Shown: positions 1,425 through 3,783 of the stretch, piece after piece
How positions within the stretch are numbered: the first letter of the stretch is position 1
Layout: each line of letters begins with the position of its first letter
DNA from: a virus
Virus record (IMG/VR): IMGVR_UViG_3300044823_000214
Span: 1 to 25,511 of that record
Strand: one strand, 5' to 3'
DNA: 25,511 nt
The notes under the pieces: model-generated
Seen by the model: only the letters and a program-made list of their open reading frames with translations
What the model was told of the DNA's origin: nothing
The model's database searches: none
Position numbers and translations under genes: made by a program

Positions 1425-1534
1425 CGCAGGGACACTTCCCAGCGAACCCACTCACCAACTCGGATAGTGTCCGAGCTTAACCCCGAATATCGGGAGACTT
1501 GAGTGGAGGACGAACAGGTAGTTAAACCGTTCGT
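1425..1534 (+). promoter_or_regulatory. Structured 5' leader of the capsid gene (five helices)
   Basis: Reading the RNA by hand gives five helices with almost no free sequence between them. P0: CGC-A-GGGA (1425-1432) with TCCC-A-GCG (1437-1444), an A-A mismatch and a CACT loop. P1: 1448-1454 with 1500-1506, 7 bp, enclosing P2 and P3. P2: CTCGGA (1459-1464) with TCCGAG (1470-1475), 5-base loop. P3: CCCGA (1482-1486) with TCGGG (1490-1494), 3-base loop. P4: ACGAAC-A-GGT (1510-1519) with ACC-GTTCGT (1526-1534), one bulged A, 6-base loop. P1-P3 form a three-way junction. Its closing strand takes up the first two bases of GGAGG at 1505-1509, and P4 begins at the next base. No tRNA, known riboswitch or ribozyme core was recognised. 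Upstream, 1375-1424 contains TTGACG (1388-1393), which resembles a -35 box, but no matching -10 box, so I do not call a promoter. Confidence 0.6.
1505..1509 (+). promoter_or_regulatory. Shine-Dalgarno GGAGG of the capsid gene, separated from the start by a hairpin
   Basis: GGAGG is the only good ribosome-binding sequence upstream of the capsid ATG at 1549, but it lies 39 bases away. Hairpin P4 (1510-1534) fills most of that distance. If P4 is folded, 14 bases remain to ATG 1549, or 8 bases to the in-frame TTG at 1543. The bases just before the ATG (ACTTGTTT) have no Shine-Dalgarno match. Confidence 0.5.
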
Positions 1535-2993: not shown

Positions 2994-3042
2994 GCAGGCG
3001 CCGGGGAATAGGGGTGTTCTCCCGGCGCCTGCACCCCTTTTT
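2994..3042 (+). terminator. Strong hairpin-T terminator between capsid and tail genes
   Basis: A perfect 12-bp GC-rich stem (2994-3005 with 3021-3032) can be extended by three pairs inside the loop (3006-3008 with 3017-3019, T3020 bulged). It is followed by ACCCCTTTTT ending at 3042. It stands where T7 has its T-phi terminator, between the capsid gene and the gene for tail tubular protein A. The T-run abuts the GTG start at 3043, so terminated transcripts would end at the start codon. Confidence 0.85.
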
Positions 3043-3783
3043 GTGTCCACCCTGACCCAAGTAAATATCGCCAATCTGGCGCTCTCGCGCATCGGCGCCA
3101 AGGCCATCACGACGATGGCCGACAACACGCCGACCGCCCTCGCAGTCAACACGTGGTGGACGCAGGCCGTTTCCATCGTGGCGCGCAGCGCCCCGTGGAA
3201 TTGCCTGATGAAGCGGATGATGGTGGACCCGGTGGCGGGCTACCCGCCGGCCGTGGTGGACAACGTGGTACCCGAATACCTCTACGAGTGGTCCGCCGAA
3301 TACCAGCTCCCGGCCGATTACGTGCGGCTGGTGGAACTCAACGGCAACGACGTGTGGGATGCTGATGGCACGTTCAACGGCGACCAGTACGAAATCTATG
3401 GGCAGGCCCGGCTCAACCCGGCCCCGCCCGCCAGTTCGTCCGCTCCGGCCCTGTACGGCCCGGCCCTCTTTGCCAATCCCGACCCGGACCCGACCACCGG
3501 AGACCCGCCGCAGGCGGACATGAAGTACGTCTGCTACACGGACGACACGACGGTTTATGATTCGCTCTTCATCGACTCGCTCATTTGCATCTTGGGCGCG
3601 CGCGTGGCGACTGGGCTGCGCAAGGACGACGCGCAGATGGCCCTCGCGCTGGAAAACGAGTTTACGAAGGTTTTGCTGCCCAAGGCGATTCGCGTCAATT
3701 TGAACGAGGGCAAGCCGGTGCGCTACGATCTGGCGAGCGAGAGCCGGTTTGTGGCGTCGCGCTGGGGCAGCACCAACGGGTAG
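3043..3783 (+). CDS. Tail tubular protein A (T7 gp11-like)
   Basis: This 246-residue protein would sit between the portal and the tail nozzle. The N-terminus is typical of the family: TLTQVNIANLALSRIGAK (about residues 3-20), a short DNTPTALAVNTWW segment (about 27-39), then ARSAPWNCLMKR (about 46-57). A Pro/Asp-rich loop (about residues 126-155) is followed by the conserved helical C-terminal part (SLFIDSLICILGARVATGL and following). Homology at the very N-terminus leaves little room for a later start, so GTG 3043 is favoured even though it lies at the end of the terminator T-run and lacks a nearby Shine-Dalgarno. The only candidate site is GAAAGG (2989-2994) on the far side of the hairpin; folding would bring it to about 10 bases from GTG. 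It ends three bases before the next gene. Confidence 0.88.
   Translation: MSTLTQVNIANLALSRIGAKAITTMADNTPTALAVNTWWTQAVSIVARSAPWNCLMKRMMVDPVAGYPPAVVDNVVPEYLYEWSAEYQLPADYVRLVELNGNDVWDADGTFNGDQYEIYGQARLNPAPPASSSAPALYGPALFANPDPDPTTGDPPQADMKYVCYTDDTTVYDSLFIDSLICILGARVATGLRKDDAQMALALENEFTKVLLPKAIRVNLNEGKPVRYDLASESRFVASRWGSTNG

Follow-up and report, generated by a model that had tools for sequence, protein, structure and literature searches.

In the 25.5-kb IMG/VR virus record analysed here (the window, a podovirus fragment), the 110 bases in front of the gene at 1549-2475 are predicted to fold into a dense set of helices. The question raised by this locus is what such a structure does there. The gene matches PF19821 (Phage_capsid_2) and PHROG 3437 and encodes the major capsid protein; PF19821 is the coat family of Pelagibacter phage HTVC010P, and the window protein shares about 38% identity with the HTVC010P counterpart. 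The upstream gene (264-1181) belongs to PHROG 3742 and is called scaffold here because its relatives in HTVC204P and EXVC032P are annotated as capsid assembly protein. The reading favoured below, with a probability of about 60%, is that the leader is a divergent member of an undescribed element of PF19821 capsid leaders, whose internal loops bind a trans-acting factor and so control translation.

The original prediction, made from the letters alone, had placed five helices with 34 Watson-Crick pairs in this leader. Both the minimum-energy and the centroid structure given by RNAfold for 1425-1534 agree with it to the base, and one additional G-U pair in P2 brings the total to 35 (all features of the window are given on the + strand). 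P0 (1425-1444) is a hairpin of 7 pairs. P1 (CCACUCA 1448-1454 / UGAGUGG 1500-1506) encloses P2 (1459-1475, CUCGGAU AGU GUCCGAG) and, behind it, P3 (1482-1494). Its 3' strand takes the first two bases of GGAGG (1505-1509), and after the three bases AGG the hairpin P4 (1510-1534) begins at 1510, all as had been claimed. What the original prediction did not mention is that this GGAGG is 39 bases away from the capsid ATG (1549) and is the sole Shine-Dalgarno sequence ahead of it. The terminator proposed upstream is also present, as a hairpin with a U run (1338-1372) that resembles an intrinsic terminator and parts the scaffold-side genes from the capsid leader; the relative L092 has a similar hairpin in the same place. 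Between the window's terminator-like hairpin and the leader, a stem CCGCC/GGCGG (1395-1424) carries an AUUA x C internal loop and a bulged A. In the ensemble of 1391-1548 nearly every pair of the leader has a probability above 0.75.

The leader is also more ordered than expected by chance. Its folding energy is -44.3 kcal/mol, compared with -27.2 +/- 3.2 kcal/mol in 200 dinucleotide-shuffled controls (z -5.3), none of which is as low; with 50 extra flanking bases z is -3.1 and a single shuffle of 200 is as low. When the + strand was scanned in 242 tiles of 110 nt, none was lower than 1425-1534 (z -4.5 with 40 shuffles) over a background with mean z -0.06 and sd 0.99, the runner-up being a tile at 2945 (z -4.4). 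No family of Rfam 15 reached its gathering score in the window or in 20 relatives, a relaxed threshold gave nothing credible in the window, and a search of the window for tRNA and tmRNA found none, in line with the earlier statement that no known RNA was recognisable.

More than 200 leaders of relatives were fetched from phage records and IMG/VR via their capsid proteins, and several of these are unusually structured as well. Most relatives carry two hairpins which share one asymmetric 4x1 internal loop. Hairpin A, at about -130, has the form 5'-stem-[RNAR]-stem-loop-stem-[Y]-stem, for example GCAGG[GUAG]CGGUGAGGACCG[U]CCUGC in L079 and AGUAAG[ACAA]UUCGAAAGAA[C]CUUACU in L035. In hairpin B, at about -60, the four-base side of the loop is on the 3' strand, opposite to A (GUGAAUG[U]CCAUAUAUUUGG[GUAG]CGUUCGC in L014). 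The A and B loops are often capped by GNRA tetraloops.

The first scan for 4x1 loops was limited to GGGUAGC/GUCC-like loops and was broadened after the pelagiphage leaders. A non-redundant set of 102 leaders, at most about 85% alike, contains 60 with a strict A, 33 with a strict B and 26 with both, while random places of the same loci give 4.1%, 2.3% and 0.2%. About a third of the leaders have no strict match, some matching only through variant loops. Since the strict loop list was derived from the same sequences, all 1024 classes of 4x1 loop were also counted without selection. The most enriched were ACAA x C (23 leaders, 0.2 expected) and GUAG x U (20, 0.4 expected); AUAA x C (16, 0 expected) and ACAC x C (7, 0 expected) were enriched too, together with register-shifted readings of the loops.

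The two sides of the loop covary: GNAG is found opposite U 24 times and opposite C never, whereas ANAA is found opposite C 41 times and opposite U three times. Among the 23 pairs of one sequence-aligned cluster, 12 show double changes, and the covariation score is 0.357 compared with 0.158 after shuffling (0/500) and at most 0.09 in slid controls. A covariance model built on that cluster (R1) finds the capsid leaders of other clusters, pelagiphages included, with E-values of 1e-7 to 1e-3 and one clear false match in 347 kb (L031 at 4256, treated as false for lying inside the tail-tube-B coding sequence). A 15-base A pattern run on IMG/VR, blind to capsid genes, returned 80 loci, some on contigs that were already known. 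In 16 of the 80 a PF19821 capsid gene lies about 100-145 nt downstream, and all loci that combine an inner stem of 3 or more with a B hairpin are capsid leaders. The family-wide covarying RNA element is almost certainly real. It also seems to be previously undescribed: a literature search found no description of it, an earlier listing in the CSBJ 2023 catalogue of viral structured RNAs being possible.

In several lineages the same hairpin is also found at the start of the scaffold gene. In 75 loci, the interval from 0 to +50 of the scaffold start holds 11 matches to the 4x1 hairpin, and other 50-nt bins mostly hold 0-2. Some copies have the A orientation (+15 in pelagiphages L002 and L006, +12 in L031, L050 and L090) and others the B orientation (+21 and +24 in L015 and L016), and the scaffold hairpin of L131 runs up to and includes the start codon. 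A strict scan of the complete HTVC010P genome gave four + strand matches, namely the scaffold start (L252 4766), capsid hairpin A, and two B-like hairpins inside the scaffold and capsid genes. A shared translational operator would be expected to look like this, with a hairpin in the leader of one gene and inside the footprint of the ribosome on the other. The window has a weak candidate copy of B at its own scaffold start (267-284, AG[C]GGC-GAG-GCC[ACAA]CU); such matches arise about once per kb by chance, so about 0.05 would be expected at that place.

No close relatives of the window were found via the capsid protein alone, the tail-tube B protein or bacterial genomes, and the leader had no DNA similarity in phage records. 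As the element requires, the start of a PF19821 capsid gene follows the leader at a distance of no more than about 150 nt, and in the interval where B is expected (about -85 to -40) the window has a hairpin with a 1x4 loop of a variant kind. This hairpin (1475-1504, GCUUAA[C]CCCGAAUAUCGGG[AGAC]UUGAGU) has C1481 opposite AGAC 1495-1498, at -68. Its 5-bp inner stem (CCCGA/UCGGG around AUA) is P3, and its 6-bp outer stem excludes P1 and costs 7.3 kcal/mol to fold relative to the best fold. Outside leaders, 377 kb contain 6 B hairpins with stems as long as these, a count that favours the window in that AGAC was put on the loop list because of it. An exact parallel to the loop AGAC x C is lacking; ACAC x C, common in near relatives, is the only one that comes close. 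In the interval given for A (about -150 to -85) there is a candidate hairpin A (1430-1449, GG[ACAC]UUC-CCAGC-GAA[C]CC, the last CC being common to P1) with its loop at -117, as in L093. It has only 2 outer pairs, and forming it makes the fold 15 kcal/mol less stable than the minimum-energy structure. The bulged stem at 1395-1424, whose AUUA x C loop lies at -148, is a weaker alternative candidate; in L097 this loop serves as both A and B.

The window could instead carry a structured spacer that evolved separately and is unrelated to the family element. This would suit the non-canonical B loop, the missing strict A stem and the weak model scores: the broad model R1 gave no match to the window leader, and a model of the near relatives (R2, window not in training) matched it at E 1.1 over 51 kb, both strands. 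That R2 match, 1426-1516, nevertheless ranks second in the whole window and is aligned as by eye. The candidate A loop at -117, then P1, then B at -68 within P1 match the near relatives in position and layout, which makes a separate origin unlikely, and the window leader is very probably a divergent member of the element. The individual helices of the original prediction fared unequally in this comparison. P1 and P3 have clear counterparts (for P1 GCUCCC/GGGAGC in L172, CCAGCGGC/GCCGCUGG in L093 and AUCCGA/UCGGAU in L094) and P4 a possible one, but the sequence of P2 is not conserved, with L094 having a hairpin in the same place. For P0 no counterpart was found in the relatives; it overlaps the candidate A of the window and the place of hairpin A in the relatives.

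The relatives closest to the window (L172-L199, L214, L233, L234 and L093) suggest how the element could act. Their hairpin A has the form GCAG[ACAM]CUCCU...GAG[C]CUGC, and its strand CUCCUUGUUGAG is complementary to the Shine-Dalgarno region (CUCAACAAAGGA). Over 20 distinct pairs the duplex has a mean energy of -13.0 kcal/mol, as opposed to -8.5 kcal/mol with the A loop shuffled and -10.4 kcal/mol with the flank shuffled, and the native value was reached in 0/200 of each control. Permuting the partners across sequences gave -12.2 kcal/mol, a weak contrast with 36/2000 as low. When A was forced to fold, the predicted openness of the Shine-Dalgarno sequence rose from 0.01-0.36 to 0.42-0.63 in 8 of the 10 members tested and was unchanged in L182 and L093. 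P1 of this group directly follows A, has bases in common with its 3' strand and encloses B; its covariation, measured on A8, is modest. Because A is complementary to the Shine-Dalgarno region, its folding is predicted to free the site in this group. With A folded the ribosome site would be open, and with A unfolded the A strand would pair with the Shine-Dalgarno region and close it.

Such a switch cannot work in the same way in all members, since the capsid gene of many near relatives is without a Shine-Dalgarno sequence. None is found near the capsid start in 22 of 37 non-redundant near leaders (window counted) versus 4 of 66 other leaders. Leaders of this kind include L092, L094, L097, L098, L178, L196, L200, L201, L203-L206, L211, L216, L217, L219, L220 and L228.

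The element probably controls translation of the coat protein and, in some lineages, of the scaffold as well. The 4x1 loops (R-N-A-R opposite a pyrimidine) would be putative binding sites for one trans-acting factor, and the other helices lie between or around A and B. The factor would most simply be a head protein of the phage, either scaffold or coat, with translation controlled by its binding; a head protein as the ligand has somewhat less than an even chance. Where relatives have a copy at the scaffold start, binding there would obstruct the ribosome site of that gene. P1 of the window takes part of GGAGG, and B and candidate A compete with P1. A tentative extension, rather doubtful, is that the head protein reads the same loop twice: it would block translation of the scaffold and, by holding the capsid hairpin A folded, free the Shine-Dalgarno sequence and raise coat synthesis, such that free scaffold sets the coat-to-scaffold ratio. 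The original prediction had named translation level and feedback by a virion protein among its guesses, and both are consistent with the covarying loop repeated in relatives and its copy at the scaffold start, as far as sequence comparison can tell.

It had also suggested stabilisation of the mRNA, in which a compact 5' structure protects the very abundant capsid message from decay with no ligand. Transcription signals fit this in part. Downstream of the capsid gene a very stable hairpin at 2994-3042 (GCAGGCGCCGGGGAAUAGGGGUGUUCUCCCGGCGCCUGC, then ACCCC and five U) lies just before the tail-gene start at 3043, in the second most structured tile of the window, and is likely a terminator. With terminator-like hairpins on both sides (1338-1372 and before 3043), the capsid gene seems to form a separate transcription unit together with its neighbour of 153 aa. 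Some members of the family have a -10-like hexamer whose end is 0-10 nt ahead of A (10 seen, 2.2 expected), for example just upstream of A in L036, L019, L025, L014 and L015, and the leader of Alteromonas phage ZP6 (L009) has TTGACA-17-TATAAT. The capsid mRNA may therefore start at A, and A may cap the 5' end. For a stabiliser, however, there would be no need of a base-specific, covarying 4x1 loop that appears twice with its orientation reversed, or of a further copy shortly after the coding region of the scaffold gene begins, and protection without a ligand is an improbable explanation.

P4 may have a separate role in the window. GGAGG lies 39 nt upstream of the start codon, and the hairpin would shorten this spacing to 14 nt, the layout of a split ribosome-binding site in which a distant Shine-Dalgarno sequence is brought near by a hairpin. 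In L225 a GGAGG at -44, the same position as in the window, is likewise followed by a hairpin and then AUG, and ordinary Shine-Dalgarno sequences precede most of the other window genes that were checked. Precedents are known from T4, where, according to PMC3014915, which cites Nivinskas 1999 and Malys & Nivinskas 2009, an intervening hairpin cuts the distance from the Shine-Dalgarno sequence to the start codon from 22 to 5 nt in gene 38 and from 27 to 11 nt in gene 25. Two things set the window site apart from those of T4: its Shine-Dalgarno sequence is in contact with P1 as well, and conservation within the element falls on A and B rather than on the hairpin that bridges. If bridging were the entire function, with the upstream helices merely isolating the P4 site, the conservation of A and B would be left unexplained; moreover, the window GGAGG may be unused, given the 22 of 37 near leaders without a Shine-Dalgarno sequence near the capsid start. 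In the window P4 may serve as such a bridge, but it is quite improbable that the leader does nothing else. A small-molecule riboswitch or a tertiary-contact module, with loops binding a metabolite or each other, would accommodate the two identical, often GNRA-capped loops and the two-state pairing with the Shine-Dalgarno region in one subclade, but is very improbable given the single scaffold-start hairpin that has no partner, the lack of a linked metabolic gene and the lack of an Rfam match.

Translational control of the kind proposed for the repeated loop has counterparts in known systems. The MS2/R17 coat hairpin and the autoregulation of the P22 scaffold are examples of autogenous regulation in phages. 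In ribosomal-protein operators, for example the S8 site, an asymmetric internal loop in an mRNA leader is recognised by a protein; the capsid leaders have such a loop too, but at phage head genes only, with neither a ribosomal-protein gene nor rRNA mimicry. T4 gp32 and gp43 have autogenous operators as well (PMC3014915). Like the autogenous phage operators, the element is short and structured, sits close to where a structural or replication gene begins, and is expected to bind the product of that gene. Unlike them, it has a 4x1 loop repeated in permuted orientation, before the coat gene and at the scaffold gene, and its binding is a prediction. The manA, wcaG and PhotoRC-II RNAs of cyanophages are also phage-borne structured mRNA leaders from marine sequences (PMC2864571), but they belong to other genes, and no Rfam model, theirs included, matches the capsid leader.

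HTVC010P-like podoviruses are widespread in the ocean, and the phage family is large and mostly marine. How coat and scaffold are proportioned in tailed phages is known for few systems. That phages of Pelagibacter and Alteromonas and uncultured phages have one loop conserved at exactly the two main genes of head assembly makes this question testable, and the element adds an RNA family that is absent from Rfam.

Two further features of these loci were observed. In the window a small basic ORF of 39 aa (1198-1317, PHROG 1375) lies between the scaffold and capsid genes, and in other lineages this place is taken by unrelated small ORFs whose 3' ends overlap hairpin A. The small ORF before the capsid gene was considered as the binding factor and rejected because it is not conserved between lineages. 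In L092, a terminator-like hairpin at 1418-1460 (CCCGAGAGUAUUGAAUGCUCUCGGG then UAUAUUUUUU) is followed by a second copy of CCCGAGAG able to pair with the same strand, an arrangement that is possibly an attenuator.
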